A DNA stretch of 64,000 bases from Prosthecomicrobium pneumaticum. GTDB taxonomy: Bacteria; Pseudomonadota; Alphaproteobacteria; Rhizobiales; Kaistiaceae. Shown one piece after another: positions 9,419-17,938 of this stretch. Where the stretch lies: NCBI RefSeq assembly GCF_014199915.1, contig NZ_JACHOO010000012.1, positions 1 to 64,000 of the forward strand, given 5' to 3'. The notes under the pieces are model-generated. The model searched no databases. It had not been told where the DNA came from and saw only the letters and a program-made list of their open reading frames with translations. Both the position numbers and the translations under genes were made by a program. Numbering within the stretch: the first letter of the stretch is position 1; the number at the start of each line of letters is the position of its first letter.

Positions 9419-9866
9419 GGAAGAAGAGCCCTCACCTTGGCGAAGGAAGGAAAGACCCTCACCCCGGCCCTCTCCCGCGGGGCGGGAGAGGGGGAACCCC
9501 AGCGTTGCGCTCGTTCTCCCCGCGCATGCTCGGTCGCAGGTCCGCGCAGCCGGCGCCGCTTCCCTCTCCCGCGGGGCGGGGAGAGGGGATCCCAAGCGTG
9601 GACCTCGCCTTTTCGACGCGTCTCGGCGTCAGGTCCGCGCAGCCGGCGCCGCCCCCTCTCCCGCTCGCGGGAGAGGGCTTCGCTTCTCGGCGAGCGAAGC
9701 GAGCCTAGACGCGAAGGGTGAGGGTCCTTTGGCTGGCCGGTTAAAGGCGGGAAGAAAGACCCTCACCCTACCCTCTCCCCACTCGGCTCGGCTGTTGCCG
9801 AGCCGAGCGCGGAAAAGGCGAAGTCGGCAACAGCCGACTTCGCCCGCGGGAGAGGGGATCCCGACC
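9419..9866. repeat. Cluster of REP-like hairpin elements
   Basis: The 470-base gap between solA and serB is filled with repeats. There are at least four cores of type CCCTCTCCCGC/GCGGGAGAGGG, an inner CTTCGC/GCGAAG type hairpin (about 9668-9716), and a pair of long palindromes: CTCGGCTCGGC-TGTTG-CCGAGCCGAG near 9780 and GAAGTCGGC-AACA-GCCGACTTC near 9819. No gene is supported here. Confidence 0.85.
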
Positions 9867-11811: not shown

Positions 11812-13320
11812 ATGCCCATGCTGCGGAGCCCGGAGAAGGCCCTGTACGTCGATCCCCCCGCCGCACCCGGTCTCGCGATCTTCGATCTCGCGCCGATGTC
11901 GCTCTGGCTGGAAGACTATAGCGGCGTCAAGGCCTTGCTCGATTTCTGGCGGGATGGCGGGGTGACCGATCTCGCCGCGCATCTGCGCGCCGACCCGGAA
12001 CGGGTGAAGAGCTCCGCCCGCGAAATCCGGGTCGTCGACGTCAACCGGGCGACGCTCGAGCTCTATGAGGCGCCGGATCGCGACACGCTGGTGGCCCGGC
12101 TCGGCGACGTGCTGCGCGACGACATGCTCGGGACGCATGCCGAGGAGCTCGTGCAGCTCTGGAACGGCCGGCTCGATTTTATGAGCAACGCCGTCAACTA
12201 TACATTGTCGGGCCGGCGGCTCGATACGCAGCTGAAGGGCCGCATTCTTCCGGGTTATGAGCACGACTGGAGCCGTGTTCTGGTGGCGATCGACGACGTT
12301 TCGGAGCGCGAGCGTTCCCGGCGCCGGCTGGCGGCGAGCGAGGCCTATGCGCGCGGCCTGTTCAGCCATTCGCCGGTCTCGCTCTGGGTCGAGGATTTTT
12401 CGGCCGTCAAGCGGCTGCTCGACGATGCCCGGGCGCGCGGCATCAGCGATCTGCGCGTCTTCACGGACGTCCATCCGGAATTCATCCAGCGCTGCATGAG
12501 CGAGATCCGTGTGCTCGACGTCAACCGGCACACGCTCGAGCTGTTCCGCGCGCCGGACCTGCAGACGCTCCTCTTGCGCCAGCGCGACATCTTCCGCGAC
12601 GGCATGGAACAGCCCTTCCGCGAGCAGCTGATCGACCTGTGGAACGGCAAGCTGTTCCAGAGCCGCGAGGTGGTGAACTATTCGCTCGAGGGCGACGAAC
12701 TCTATCTCCACCTGCAGTTCTCCGTCCTGCCGGACCATGAGACGGACTGGTCGCTCGTCCAGGTCGCGCTGACCGACATCACGGCGCGCAAGAAGGCGGA
12801 GGCCTATCTCGAATTCCTCGGCAAGCACGACGTGCTGACGAAGCTCCACAACCGCTCCTTCTATGTCGACGAACTGTCGCGGCTGGAGCGGAAGGGGCCT
12901 TGGCCGATCTCGGTGATCATCGCCGACCTCAACGGGCTCAAGGACACCAATGACCGGTTCGGCCACGCGTTCGGCGACGATCTGCTGCGGCGGGCGGGCG
13001 AGGTGCTCGGCAAGCTCGTCGAGGCGCCGCGCTATGCCGCGCGCATCGGCGGCGACGAGTTCGCCATCCTTCTGCCCGGTGCGGACGAGGCGGAGACGCG
13101 CAAGGTGATCGAGGATTTCGACCGGCTCCTCGATCTCAACAATCACTTCTATTCGGCGATCCCGCTCTCCTTCGCGGTCGGCGCGGCGACCGCGCACGGC
13201 CGCGGCGAGCGGCTCGAGGAGATCGTCAAGCGGGCCGACGCGCTGATGTACGAAAGGAAGCGGCTCCATCATGCGGAGCGCGAGCAGGGGGCGGCGCGGC
13301 GCGCTTCGACCCTCGACTAA
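11812..13320 (+). CDS. GGDEF-domain diguanylate cyclase with duplicated sensor domains
   Basis: 502 aa, probably making cyclic di-GMP. Residues about 20-170 and 180-330 are two related PAS-like units; both contain the pattern SLWxEDxSxVKxLLD ... EIRVxDVNRxTLEL ... WNGxL..., so they arose by duplication. The GGDEF domain (about 340-490) has its active signature GGDEF at residues 413-417. The RxxD inhibitory site expected just before it reads EAPR instead, so product inhibition is probably missing. No EAL domain or membrane segment is present, so the protein is cytoplasmic. It follows miaA by 122 bases; the gap shows nothing clear. The signal sensed is unknown. Confidence 0.88.
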   Translation: MPMLRSPEKALYVDPPAAPGLAIFDLAPMSLWLEDYSGVKALLDFWRDGGVTDLAAHLRADPERVKSSAREIRVVDVNRATLELYEAPDRDTLVARLGDVLRDDMLGTHAEELVQLWNGRLDFMSNAVNYTLSGRRLDTQLKGRILPGYEHDWSRVLVAIDDVSERERSRRRLAASEAYARGLFSHSPVSLWVEDFSAVKRLLDDARARGISDLRVFTDVHPEFIQRCMSEIRVLDVNRHTLELFRAPDLQTLLLRQRDIFRDGMEQPFREQLIDLWNGKLFQSREVVNYSLEGDELYLHLQFSVLPDHETDWSLVQVALTDITARKKAEAYLEFLGKHDVLTKLHNRSFYVDELSRLERKGPWPISVIIADLNGLKDTNDRFGHAFGDDLLRRAGEVLGKLVEAPRYAARIGGDEFAILLPGADEAETRKVIEDFDRLLDLNNHFYSAIPLSFAVGAATAHGRGERLEEIVKRADALMYERKRLHHAEREQGAARRASTLD

Positions 13321-13367: not shown

Positions 13368-13396
13368 TTGACCCGGTGAAGGGCGTGGGACTATGG
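13368..13396 (+). promoter_or_regulatory. Sigma-70-type promoter of the ilv leader
   Basis: TTGACC (13368-13373), a 17-base spacer and CTATGG (13391-13396). This fits the alphaproteobacterial consensus CTTGAC-N17-CTATAT; the base before the -35 box is C. Transcription from here would cover the leader peptide, the hairpins and ilvI. Confidence 0.6.
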
Positions 13397-13426
13397 TCCC
13401 GCCAGTTCCAGAACAGAGGGCCGGAC

Positions 13427-13480
13427 ATGATCCGCCGCTTCATTCTCGTACTTAGAAGGCGCACGAACGCGATGGCATGA
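13427..13480 (+). CDS. Branched-chain attenuator leader peptide
   Basis: 17-codon frame encoding MIRRFILVLRRRTNAMA, 111 bases before ilvI, with the run Ile-Leu-Val-Leu at codons 6-9. It starts about 30 bases after a good promoter. It is followed by one hairpin (GCGCACGA 13459-13466 / TCGTGCGC 13494-13501), which the ribosome would open, and then by a terminator. Stalling at Ile/Leu/Val codons when these amino acids are short would allow read-through. This is an inference from the layout. Confidence 0.75.
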   Translation: MIRRFILVLRRRTNAMA

Positions 13481-13508
13481 GCCGTCGACCCGATCGTGCG
13501 CTGAAATG

Positions 13509-13530
13509 GGCCCTTCGAGGGCCTTTTTTA
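13509..13530 (+). terminator. Attenuator terminator before ilvI
   Basis: Stem GGCCCT / AGGGCC with loop TCG, followed directly by six T residues. It lies between the leader peptide and ilvI, so it cannot be a gene-end terminator. It is the expected termination hairpin of a leader-peptide attenuator. Confidence 0.8.
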
Positions 13531-13591
13531 TTGGCCGTTTCAAAGGATTGCGGCGCGACCGGCAAGCCGGCCGCCGCGTGGAGTGAAGGCG

Positions 13592-15358
13592 ATGACGCGA
13601 CAGATGACGGGCGCGGAGATGGTCGTCCAGGCTCTGATCGATCAGGGCGTCGAGCATATTTTCGGCTATCCGGGCGGCGCCGTGCTGCCGATCTATGACG
13701 AGATCTTCCAGCAGGAGAAGGTCCAGCACATCCTCGTCCGCCACGAGCAGGGTGCCGGCCATGCGGCCGAGGGCTATGCCCGCTCGACCGGCAAGGTCGG
13801 CGTCGCGCTCGTCACCTCGGGGCCGGGGGCGACCAATATGGTGACCCCGCTCACCGACGCGCTGATGGATTCGATCCCGATGGTCTGCATCACCGGCCAG
13901 GTGGCGACCCATCTGATCGGTTCGGACGCCTTCCAGGAATGCGACACCGTCGGCATCACCCGGCCCTCGACCAAGCACAACTGGCTGGTCAAGGACGTCA
14001 ACGATCTCGGCCGCATCCTGCACGAGGCCTTCTATGTCGCGCGGTCCGGCCGGCCCGGCCCGGTCGTCGTCGACATTCCGAAGGACGTCCAGTTCGCCAC
14101 CGGCACCTATCACGGGCCGCAGAATGTCGAGCACAAGACCTATCATCCGCAGGTCCGCGGCGACATCGGCCGGATCCGCGCCGCGGTCGAACTGATGGCG
14201 CGCGCGAAGAAGCCGGTCTTCTATACCGGCGGCGGCGTCGTCAATTCCGGTCCCGAGGCGACGCGGCTGCTGCGCGAGCTGGTCGCCGCGACGGGCTTCC
14301 CGGTGACCTCGACGCTGATGGGGCTCGGCGCCTATCCGGCTTCGGGCGAGAACTGGCTCGGCATGCTCGGCATGCACGGCACCTATGAAGCGAACAACGC
14401 GATGCACGATTGCGACGTGATGATCGCGATCGGCGCGCGCTTCGACGACCGCATCACCGGCCGGCTCGACGCCTTCTCGCCGGGCTCGAAGAAGATCCAC
14501 ATCGACATCGACCCGTCCTCGATCAACAAGAACGTCCGTGTCGACATCGGCATTCTGGGCGATGTCGCCCATGTGCTCGAGGACATGCTGGCGATCTGGA
14601 AGGAGAGCGGCCACAAGGCGGACGAGAAGGCGCTCGCCGGCTGGTGGGGCGAGATCGACCGATGGCGCGCCCGCCGGAGCCTCGCCTACCGCCAGTCGGG
14701 CGAGACGATCATGCCGCAATACGCGATCCAGCGGCTCTACGAGAAGACCAGGGACCGCAAGACCTTCATCACCACGGAGGTCGGCCAGCACCAGATGTGG
14801 GCGGCGCAGTTCTACGGCTTCGAGGAGCCGAACCGCTGGATGACCTCGGGCGGCCTCGGCACGATGGGCTATGGCCTGCCGGCGGCGATCGGGGCGCAGA
14901 CCGCGCATCGCGACGCGCTCGTCATCGACATCGCCGGCGATGCCTCGATCCTGATGAACATGCAGGAGATGTCGACCGCCGTGCAGCACGAGCTGCCGGT
15001 CAAGGTCTTCATCCTCAACAACCAGTATATGGGCATGGTCCGGCAGTGGCAGCAGCTCCTGCACGGCAACCGGCTGTCGCATTCCTATACCGAGGCGCTG
15101 CCCGACTTCGTCAAGCTCGCCGAGGCCTATGGCGGCATCGGCATCCGGGCGGAGAAGGCCTCCGAGCTCGACGACGCGATCGATGCGATGATCGCGGCGA
15201 AGGGGCCGGTGCTGTTCGACTGCCGCGTCGCCAATCTCGCCAACTGCTTCCCGATGATCCCCTCGGGCAAGGCGCACAACGAGATGCTGCTGCCGGAAGA
15301 CGCGACCGACGCGGCGATCGCCGAGGCGATCGACGCGGAAGGCCGCGCCCTGGTGTAG
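13592..15358 (+). CDS. ilvI: Acetolactate synthase large (catalytic) subunit
   Basis: 588 aa. The thiamine-diphosphate, Mg and FAD-dependent enzyme condenses pyruvate with pyruvate or 2-ketobutyrate in the first common step of valine, leucine and isoleucine synthesis. Visible features are the catalytic Glu in RHEQGAGHAAEGYAR, the substrate block KHNWLV, and the ThDP motif GDASILMNMQEMSTAVQHELPVK (GD...NN with ILNNQYMGMVRQWQ). ATG 13592 with GGAG 8 bases upstream is preferred over GTG 13583. ilvH follows after a REP-filled gap. Expression is probably controlled by the upstream leader peptide. Confidence 0.97.
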   Translation: MTRQMTGAEMVVQALIDQGVEHIFGYPGGAVLPIYDEIFQQEKVQHILVRHEQGAGHAAEGYARSTGKVGVALVTSGPGATNMVTPLTDALMDSIPMVCITGQVATHLIGSDAFQECDTVGITRPSTKHNWLVKDVNDLGRILHEAFYVARSGRPGPVVVDIPKDVQFATGTYHGPQNVEHKTYHPQVRGDIGRIRAAVELMARAKKPVFYTGGGVVNSGPEATRLLRELVAATGFPVTSTLMGLGAYPASGENWLGMLGMHGTYEANNAMHDCDVMIAIGARFDDRITGRLDAFSPGSKKIHIDIDPSSINKNVRVDIGILGDVAHVLEDMLAIWKESGHKADEKALAGWWGEIDRWRARRSLAYRQSGETIMPQYAIQRLYEKTRDRKTFITTEVGQHQMWAAQFYGFEEPNRWMTSGGLGTMGYGLPAAIGAQTAHRDALVIDIAGDASILMNMQEMSTAVQHELPVKVFILNNQYMGMVRQWQQLLHGNRLSHSYTEALPDFVKLAEAYGGIGIRAEKASELDDAIDAMIAAKGPVLFDCRVANLANCFPMIPSGKAHNEMLLPEDATDAAIAEAIDAEGRALV

Positions 15359-15371
15359 GGAAAGGAAGGCG

Positions 15372-15514
15372 AGGCCCTCACCCCCGAGCGGGGGAGGCCC
15401 TCACCCTAACCCTCTCCCGCAAGCGGGAGAGGGGATTATGGTGCTCTGGTTCCGAGGCCCCGCGAAAGCGAAGAGCCTCCCTCTCCCGCTCGCGGGAGAG
15501 GGCCGGGGTGAGGG
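15372..15514. repeat. REP-like hairpins between ilvI and ilvH
   Basis: Two hairpin cores (CCCTCTCCCGCAAGCGGGAGAGGG near 15410 and CCCTCTCCCGCTCGCGGGAGAGGG near 15478) with adjoining CCCTCACCC/GGGTGAGGG arms. They sit inside an operon, so they may influence mRNA stability or the ratio of the two subunits. Confidence 0.8.
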
Positions 15515-15554: not shown

Positions 15555-16094
15555 ATGCAGCCGGGGTCGGTCTACGCGATCAAGGAGGGCAAGGATCGAA
15601 CCGAGCAGCACACGCTGTCGATCCTCGTCGACAATGAGCCCGGCATTCTCGCCCGGGTGATCGGCCTCTTCTCGGGCCGGGGCTACAATATCGAGAGCCT
15701 GACGGTTTCCGAGACCGAGCACGAGAAGCACCGCTCGCGCATCACCGTGGTGACGAACGGCTCGCCGGCGGTGATCGAGCAGATCAAGGCGCAGCTCGAG
15801 CGCATGGTCCTCGTCCACCGCGTCACCGATCTCACCGTGACCGGCCGCTCGATCGAGCGGGAACTCGCGCTCATCAAGGTGCGCGGCTCCGGCGACGCGC
15901 GCGTCGAGGCGCTGCGGCTCGCCGACGCCTTCCGTGCCCGGGTGATCGACGCGACGACCGAGAGCTTCGTCTTCGAACTGACCGGCCGGACCGACAAGAT
16001 CGACCAGTTCCTCCTCCTGATGCAGCCGCTCGGCCTCGTCGAGGTGTCGCGCACCGGCGTCGCGGCGATCGCCCGCGGCCCGGAGGCGATGTAG
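15555..16094 (+). CDS. ilvH: Acetolactate synthase small (regulatory) subunit
   Basis: 179 aa regulatory subunit, with the N-terminal ACT domain that binds valine for feedback control (HTLSILVDNEPGILARVIGLFSGRGYNIESLTV) and a C-terminal ALS-type domain (VRGSGDARVEALRLADAFRARVIDATTES). Both domains are at their usual places for the family. ATG 15555 gives the expected N-terminus; the in-frame upstream part is repeat sequence. It works with ilvI on the same strand. Confidence 0.96.
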   Translation: MQPGSVYAIKEGKDRTEQHTLSILVDNEPGILARVIGLFSGRGYNIESLTVSETEHEKHRSRITVVTNGSPAVIEQIKAQLERMVLVHRVTDLTVTGRSIERELALIKVRGSGDARVEALRLADAFRARVIDATTESFVFELTGRTDKIDQFLLLMQPLGLVEVSRTGVAAIARGPEAM

Positions 16095-16132: not shown

Positions 16133-16457
16133 GAAGGAGGGCCGATCATGCGCGTCAAGCTGGCGAAATGGGGCAACAGCCTCGCCGTGCGCATTCCGAA
16201 GAAGCTCGCCGAGCGGCTGGACCTGAAGGAAGGGACCGAGCTCGACGTCGACGTCGCGGGCCTGCGCGGCCTGCGGATGGCGGCGGTGGGCGGCGCGGCT
16301 CCGAAGACGCTCGACGAATTGTTCGCCGAGGCCGAGCGGACCGGGCCGCTCGAGCCCCCGGCGCTCGTCGACTGGGGTCCCGACCGGGGCAATGAGCGAT
16401 GGCCGGACGAGGACTGGAGCGACATCGCGCCCACGGATGAGGAAATGAGAAGCCTCC

Positions 16458-17938
<1,481 letters not shown>

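Follow-up and report, generated by a model that had tools for sequence, protein, structure and literature searches.

A candidate attenuator upstream of the acetolactate synthase operon of Prosthecomicrobium pneumaticum

We analysed a 64,000-nt stretch of the Prosthecomicrobium pneumaticum genome (hereafter, the window) around the genes of the large (ilvB/ilvI) and small (ilvN/ilvH) subunits of acetolactate synthase. Upstream of ilvB, which is presumed to be the regulated gene, ends a frame (last position 13320) that we take to be a GGDEF-type gene, and downstream of ilvN lies what is presumably ilvC. An initial annotation had placed a leader-peptide attenuator in front of ilvI. The features of this region are the following:

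13368–13373, + strand: −35 box TTGACC (read directly and found by a promoter scan; box and spacing are the same in Kaistia hirudinis, L009)
13391–13397, + strand: −10 box, either CTATGG (13391–13396, 17-nt spacer) or TATGGT (13392–13397, 18-nt spacer)
13416–13420, + strand: Shine-Dalgarno-like GAGGG of the leader frame
13427–13480, + strand: leader peptide frame MIRRFILVLRRRTNAMA, ATG at 13427, 17 sense codons, stop codon TGA at 13478–13480
13442–13453, + strand: Ile-Leu-Val-Leu run of putative regulatory codons (ATT CTC GTA CTT), three of which are rare in genes of the window
13458–13466, + strand: 5′ arm of the outer hairpin (A; fold and covariation)
13468–13492, + strand: inner hairpin (B), loop 13477–13480 containing the leader stop codon (fold, covariation and stop placement)
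13494–13502, + strand: 3′ arm of the outer hairpin (C; fold and covariation)
13508–13529, + strand: intrinsic terminator, stem 13508–13514/13518–13524, loop 13515–13517, T-run 13524–13529 (scan and covariation)
13592–15358, + strand: acetolactate synthase large subunit, ilvB/ilvI (NF006581, 1171 bits; TIGR00118, 787.5 bits)
15555–16094, + strand: acetolactate synthase small subunit, ilvN/ilvH (TIGR00119, 172.4 bits)

The ATG at 13592 suits the relatives of ilvB better as a start codon than the GTG at 13583, since their alignments begin at residues 1–5. Among the best 80 of at least 592 named ilvB loci, the closest relative was that of Kaistia hirudinis (Hyphomicrobiales), with 87% protein identity.

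The promoter-like site TTGACC-N17-CTATGG of the initial annotation can be read directly at 13368–13396, and so can the 17-codon frame with Ile, Leu, Val and Leu in a row at 13427–13480. The promoter scan, whose choice for the −10 box was TATGGT at 13392–13397 with the 18-nt spacer, found one promoter-like site in 2 kb where 0.1 were expected. In a sample of eight genes of the window, two of them read from an internal in-frame base, ATT accounted for 4.2% of the Ile codons, CTT for 2.7% of the Leu codons and GTA for none of the 254 Val codons. In the runs of 73 distinct leaders, that of the window included, 35% of the Val codons were GTA and 62% of the Ile codons were ATT. The window element thus carries, as expected of an attenuator, a run of codons for the amino acids of the pathway in a short frame before the biosynthetic gene, and an intrinsic terminator between frame and gene.

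The proposed 8-bp hairpin, formed by GCGCACGA (13459–13466) and its complement TCGTGCGC (13494–13501), is present and has nine pairs in the minimum-energy fold, where the outer stem (13458–13466/13494–13502) surrounds an inner hairpin whose loop, ATGA, carries the stop codon of the leader. The 128-nt RNA from 13403 to 13530 folded with −55.2 kcal/mol, compared with −39.1 kcal/mol (sd 3.8) in 200 shuffles, none of which was as stable (z −4.3). The terminator stem with its six T residues was found as described, and was one of two terminator-like sites in 2 kb, where 1.0 were expected. Therefore, the terminator scan on its own is weak and conservation carries the case. We also considered whether a ribosome at the Ile-Leu-Val-Leu codons reaches the hairpin. 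If the edge of the ribosome is assumed to lie 13 nt beyond the first base of the codon in the A site, this arithmetic holds for Val8 and Leu9 and fails for Ile6 and Leu7, where the hairpin arm would be left free.

The leader element is conserved before ilvB

We compared the best 80 of the at least 592 named ilvB loci. A leader frame with an Ile/Leu/Val run preceded the gene in 78 of them and was accompanied by a terminator in 77, the hairpin being judged by eye in these, while two loci (L074 and L088) showed no leader element before ilvB. In a short contig of a metagenome-assembled genome (L071, 1539–1689) the leader runs directly into the 3′ arm of the terminator, so that the hairpin lacks its 3′ half and the terminator its 5′ arm; this gap may have arisen by deletion or through faulty assembly. 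L071 was left out of the resulting set of 78 sequences (73 distinct, the window included), and L037 and L040 were re-anchored by hand on a downstream start. An alignment of 43 of the 73 leaders, again with the window (A1), was used to build a covariance model, R1. RNAalifold misplaced the terminator of A1 by one column, and for this reason a hand-made structure was used in R1.

R1 matched in 27 of the 28 genomes of the window's family, its own genome included; the only one with no match was G315, an assembly of 720 contigs. Because the window is part of the model and G313 is seemingly a Kaistia genome already contained in it, the independent count is 25 of 26. Matches were also found in 13 of 33 genomes from the other families of the order. 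All 30 R1 loci that were fetched (L096–L125, the window being L099) lead into ilvB. A search of 385 genomes across the class, with stricter filters that lose weak matches, returned five matches, of which three lie before ilvB (G000, G189 and G252) and one, in G107, is linked to an efflux pump gene; a match in G092 (L129) was dismissed as spurious by eye. The element was absent before the own ilvB of G107 (L135). As L074, L088 and L135 lack it, the element is not required for every ilvB.

Conservation in relatives was one of the points on which the initial annotation had staked its reading in advance. Frame, hairpins, T-run and promoter boxes were all conserved, and the leader-peptide attenuator before ilvI is supported by this comparison.

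Covariation supports both hairpins and the terminator

In A1, aligned with MAFFT, 89.8% of the cells were able to pair and 10 of the 21 base pairs showed two-sided changes. None of 500 shuffles reached the observed values in three measures, and 12 and 6 of the 500 did so in the other two. We then used a model-fitted alignment, A2, containing the 87 matches to R1 obtained from 90 loci (L074, L088 and L135 were unmatched). In this alignment, which leans towards the structure, 94.2% of the cells paired, 17 of the 21 pairs showed two-sided changes, no shuffle scored as high on any of the five measures and versions of the structure slid along the alignment scored far lower. The first two pairs of the outer stem were invariant in all 87 sequences. 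When all pairs of columns were scanned, the top eight corresponded to the outer stem, its extension (44:115), the inner stem and the terminator.

In 75 of 86 sequences, among them that of the window, the leader stop codon fell inside the inner loop. It lay in the 5′ arm of the inner stem in eight (L009, L107, L109, L111, L113, L124 and L125, Kaistia-type, and L128) and in or at the 3′ arm in three (L101, L108 and L120). The position of the stop codon relative to the hairpin is consequently not fixed.

Two spacings between promoter and leader frame

The promoter-like boxes upstream of the frame are conserved in relatives: a match to the −35 box was found in 71 of the 73 distinct sequences, the exceptions being L011 and L015. 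In 69 of these 71, the leader ATG follows the end of the −10 box after 5–10 nt, and only two of the 69 have a Shine-Dalgarno-like word. This arrangement suggests that the leader frame of most relatives (69 of 71) is leaderless. In the window and in the Kaistia locus L009, the distance from −10 box to ATG is 29 nt and a Shine-Dalgarno-like word is present, which would leave room for a 5′-UTR. Seventeen further loci of the window's family showed distances of 24–31 nt in 15 cases, 13 of them with a Shine-Dalgarno-like word, and of 5–6 nt in L100 and L101.

Search for an antiterminator

In a classical attenuator, an alternative pairing must capture the 5′ arm of the terminator when the ribosome stalls. 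Here, the outer hairpin sits between the codons and the terminator and does not overlap the latter. Duplexes between the terminator 5′ arm (D) and upstream sequence showed no excess over shuffles in the 73 sequences (mean z +0.40 to +1.06), and in a column scan with an effective number of 38 sequences, D covaried in a pair-like manner only with the terminator's own 3′ arm. We also compared the duplexes that D forms with its own upstream sequence and with swapped ones in 44 non-redundant sequences. The six tests gave p values of 0.75 to 0.997, compared with p below 1e-6 for the three positive controls (outer stem, inner stem and terminator); no-pair values distort two of the swapped means, namely the inner-stem control and the pairing of B5 with the terminator arm. 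In the same kind of test, own sequences did better for the C arm with the terminator 3′ arm (36 of 44, p 3e-4, −6.4 kcal/mol) and for the leader codons with the C arm (34 of 44, p 4e-5, −8.1 kcal/mol). Because these energies are weak and the p values are uncorrected for relatedness, we did not build upon either pairing, and the first is taken as a weak hint from the duplex model.

We next calculated a capture energy, that is, the free energy gained if D pairs before its 3′ arm is made. For the E. coli leaders trpL, leuL, ivbL, thrL and ilvL, it amounted to −4 to −15 kcal/mol with the ribosome at the regulatory codons, compared with 0 to −1 kcal/mol at the stop codon, in five of five cases. The family was represented by 86 of the 87 sequences of A2, with the pump-linked and second-synthase copies described below included and L020 excluded, as the script picked no frame in it. 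Mean capture was −1.15 kcal/mol at the first and −2.54 kcal/mol at the last regulatory codon, compared with −2.67 kcal/mol at the stop, so that stalling conferred no advantage across these 86 sequences. In the window, capture was −1.1, −0.4, −2.3 and −4.2 kcal/mol at the four regulatory codons and strongest, −5.5 kcal/mol, at the stop. Neither the window nor the family means thus display the mutually exclusive antiterminator that defines a trp-type attenuator. Seventeen of the 86 sequences lean towards the classical behaviour, with capture that reaches −2 kcal/mol or stronger at the last codon and falls off by 1 kcal/mol or more at the stop. The capture and duplex models assume equilibrium and a fixed ribosome edge and exclude pseudoknots, and hence they only make a hidden antiterminator less likely.

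The weakest ilvB-linked match (L128, 1501–1604; 35 bits) has an E. coli-like capture profile, −5.3 to −5.6 kcal/mol at four codons compared with −0.9 kcal/mol at the stop, and may represent an older, classical form of the leader. Two other read-outs were discarded on the E. coli controls: the equilibrium probability of the terminator barely moved with the ribosome (0.96–1.00 in trpL, leuL and thrL, 0.84–0.92 in ilvL and 0.66–0.76 in ivbL), and an energy comparison with the terminator pairs forbidden did not separate them.

The initial annotation had held that the spacing of the elements gives a working attenuation model. According to both covariation and capture energy this model is incomplete: the 8-bp hairpin and the terminator share no sequence, and no conserved antiterminator was found, which leaves the link from stalling to read-through missing.

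The Rfam family Atu_C8 corresponds to the ilvB leader

In the accessible part of their article (PMC1273637), Corbino et al. (2005) list an ilvB leader peptide with the ‘previously described’ elements of alpha-proteobacteria and credit it to Vitreschak et al. (2004), and the portion available of a Caulobacter genome map (PMC4117421) describes an ilv operon under attenuation, its leader containing Ile and Val codons in tandem. This kind of mechanism has therefore been in print since at least 2005, and the window provides a further example. Going by these partial descriptions, the published leaders and the present one share the branched-chain frame and the Rho-independent terminator before acetolactate synthase; they differ in that no conserved antiterminator is found here and that the frame of the window has a Shine-Dalgarno-like word.

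The window was matched by the full model of Rfam family RF02502 (Atu_C8, ‘Rhizobiales sRNA’) with 46.8 bits (E 9.6e-9), below the gathering score of 50. The same model gave 118–121 bits on the ilvB leaders of Agrobacterium (L027, 1801–1920; L033, 1801–1920; L086, 1802–1921) and 100.9–121.2 bits on six ilvB leaders of other families, and did not score above the cut-off in Kaistia L009 and L098. The Agrobacterium members of Atu_C8 share with the leader of the window their place before ilvB and the three helices. We conclude that Atu_C8 is the ilvB attenuator leader RNA, the same RNA having been filed in Rfam as an sRNA gene rather than as an attenuator, and we suggest that the family be read accordingly. 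In L027, L033, L086 and L022 the match starts at the third base of the leader ATG, which fits transcripts that start at the AUG, the first position of a model not being the same as a measured 5′ end. Over 289 genomes of the class, RF02502 yielded six matches, one of them in G275; G092, matched on both strands, looks spurious.

Other attenuators offer partial parallels. The five E. coli leaders likewise combine a leader peptide with regulatory codons, hairpins and a terminator, and differ from the window and the family means in their capture, which engages the terminator 5′ arm while the ribosome is at the regulatory codons and leaves it almost free once the stop is reached. In Sinorhizobium meliloti trpL (rnTrpL), as presented in the accessible part of PMC7298713, the transcript has its start at the AUG and is terminated through attenuation, matching what the spacing in most relatives suggests for the ilvB leader; it differs in its Trp codons and in the antiterminator and trans functions reported for it. 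The uORFC-8-2 motif before cysS in Rhodobacterales, as far as it is described in the available part of PMC8632094, shares a leader frame with regulatory codons, two prominent stems and a terminator U-run, and differs in carrying Cys codons, placed within the first stem, and in belonging to another gene and order. Our literature search, which covered few subscription papers, retrieved no publication equating Atu_C8 with the ilvB leader or describing pump-linked copies. An element like that of the window is not mentioned in the accessible parts of PMC10117765 and PMC2965389, nor in that of PMC3927594 when searched for the terms ilv and leader peptides.

How the leader may control the operon

Taken as a whole, the element of the window probably attenuates transcription of the acetolactate synthase operon ilvB-ilvN in a ribosome-dependent manner; the observation is real, well supported as an attenuator and a further case of a mechanism already described. 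Sequence comparison supports the promoter boxes, the frame, its rare codons, both hairpins, the terminator and the place before ilvB, and we infer the transcription start, the translation of the leader, read-through upon starvation and the amino acids sensed. RNA polymerase would start near 13404, and a ribosome would translate the 17-codon leader from 13427, its progress over Ile-Leu-Val-Leu reporting the supply of charged branched-chain tRNAs. With ample supply, transcription would end at the T-run (13524–13529) and release an RNA of ∼125 nt, presumably the RNA known as Atu_C8 in Agrobacterium; under shortage, more polymerases would read through into ilvB-ilvN. We favour the possibility that the outer hairpin might serve both as a polymerase pause hairpin and as a sensor of the ribosome's position; by simple arithmetic, the point 10–12 nt past its end falls inside the terminator 5′ arm. 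Timing and ribosome distance, rather than a stable alternative stem, would then decide whether the terminator works.

A textbook attenuator of the 1:2/2:3/3:4 type, in which ribosome stalling would release an upstream segment for antiterminator pairing with the terminator 5′ arm (13508–13514), agrees with the general architecture, and the accessible part of PMC7298713 describes an antiterminator in S. meliloti trpE(G). Capture reached −2 kcal/mol or stronger at the last regulatory codon in 49 of the 86 sequences (in the window, at Leu9), the 17 that lean classical include L126 (−5.0 compared with −1.7 kcal/mol at the stop) as well as the E. coli-like L128, and the window itself offers a weak complementarity between GAAGG (13455–13459) and CCUUC (13512–13516). 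We nevertheless consider this explanation improbable, as capture in the window is greater at the stop than at any regulatory codon, the family means are undifferentiated, the six swapped-partner tests failed where their three positive controls succeeded, and the terminator 5′ arm has no covarying partner upstream. It is about equally improbable that the terminated leader RNA, its peptide or both act in trans, as an sRNA or in the manner of rnTrpL/peTrpL, alone or alongside attenuation. Such a role would be in keeping with the filing of Atu_C8 as an sRNA gene, with the listing of RF02502 among the sRNA families of GLASSgo in the accessible part of PMC5913331, with the trans activity of both RNA and peptide of the S. 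meliloti trp attenuator (PMC7298713, same part) and with a conserved peptide C-terminus (of the 73 distinct leaders, 66 have Gly at codon −8 and 69 have Arg at codon −6). The conserved stretch, however, encodes the 5′ arm of the hairpin, so that RNA pairing can explain the conservation of the peptide; moreover, the lineage of the window changes the peptide and keeps the hairpin, and a role in cis fits the position of the element ahead of ilvB in all 30 loci L096–L125 and in 30 of 30 first-copy loci of a Rhizobium-type genus (see below). Finally, the terminator does lie between the upstream frame and ilvB, and one such site per 2 kb is expected by chance, which could be read as a fortuitous frame beside the ordinary terminator of the presumed GGDEF-type gene. 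With the promoter boxes after that gene, the frame, the codon bias and the covarying hairpins all conserved, this explanation is rejected as extremely improbable.

The attenuator described above thus offers a likely explanation for the control of ilvB in the window, and places it in a large covarying family in which the textbook antiterminator was not found. This work adds the identification of Atu_C8, the failure to find a conserved antiterminator, the occurrence of two spacings between promoter and frame, and the copies linked to pump genes.

Copies of the element before other genes

Around G107, R1 matched in 6 of 81 genomes with 69.9–99.9 bits. All six matches (L126 and L130–L134) precede a gene that matches one Bcr/CflA-type protein at 73–100% identity; the protein of L126, the only one of the six that was scanned, scored 212.8 bits against TIGR00710 (cut-off 200.9). 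When this protein was searched with tblastn in plasmid records, all best places among the matches listed were below 60% identity.

In the Rhizobium-type genus, every one of the 48 genomes searched had at least one R1 match and 36 had two or more. The 30 best-scoring copies all lead into ilvB. Of 37 further copies, 20 were fetched, from 19 genomes. Twelve of these (L169, L171, L174, L176, L178, L180–L183 and L186–L188) precede a gene that tblastn aligned to the L126 protein with 47–52% identity; for L181, the pump-like match is not the longest frame after the leader. The other eight (L170, L172, L173, L175, L177, L179, L184 and L185) precede an acetolactate synthase-like gene 61–67% identical to that of the window, with leaders such as MKIAMVLVVVISRMGRTV, and in three of the eight genomes concerned (G337, G490 and G502) another copy lies before an ilvB of 75–76% identity. 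The leaders of the further copies are rich in Met, Leu, Val and Ile, L174 having only Val-Val (MKAATFFQVVSARMGRMA).

The placement of these copies suggests that the pump and second-synthase genes may be tied in their regulation to branched-chain supply or to ribosome stalling. We tentatively raise the possibility, itself rather doubtful, of a portable ribosome-sensing cassette working as a non-classical switch, in which one conserved hairpin-terminator module with changing leaders rich in branched-chain codons would be set before ilvB, second synthase-like and Bcr/CflA-like efflux genes, and stalling, caused by amino-acid shortage or perhaps by a translation inhibitor, would open the exporter gene without a stable antiterminator stem. 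The copies before efflux genes make the dependence of pump expression on ribosome stalling directly testable.

Other features around the operon

Two overlapping small frames lie at 16148–16820 of the window, between ilvN and the presumed ilvC. The first begins with the AbrB-like MRVKLAKWGNSLAVRIPKKL and the second appears to us PemK/MazF-like, so that we take the two to resemble a MazE/MazF-type toxin-antitoxin pair. In addition, the gap between ilvB and ilvN (∼15370–15470) translates to stretches like LTLTLSRKRERG and like a second word of 11 residues, which by eye resemble dispersed palindromic repeats, and similar stretches were seen by eye near 9500–9700 of the window.
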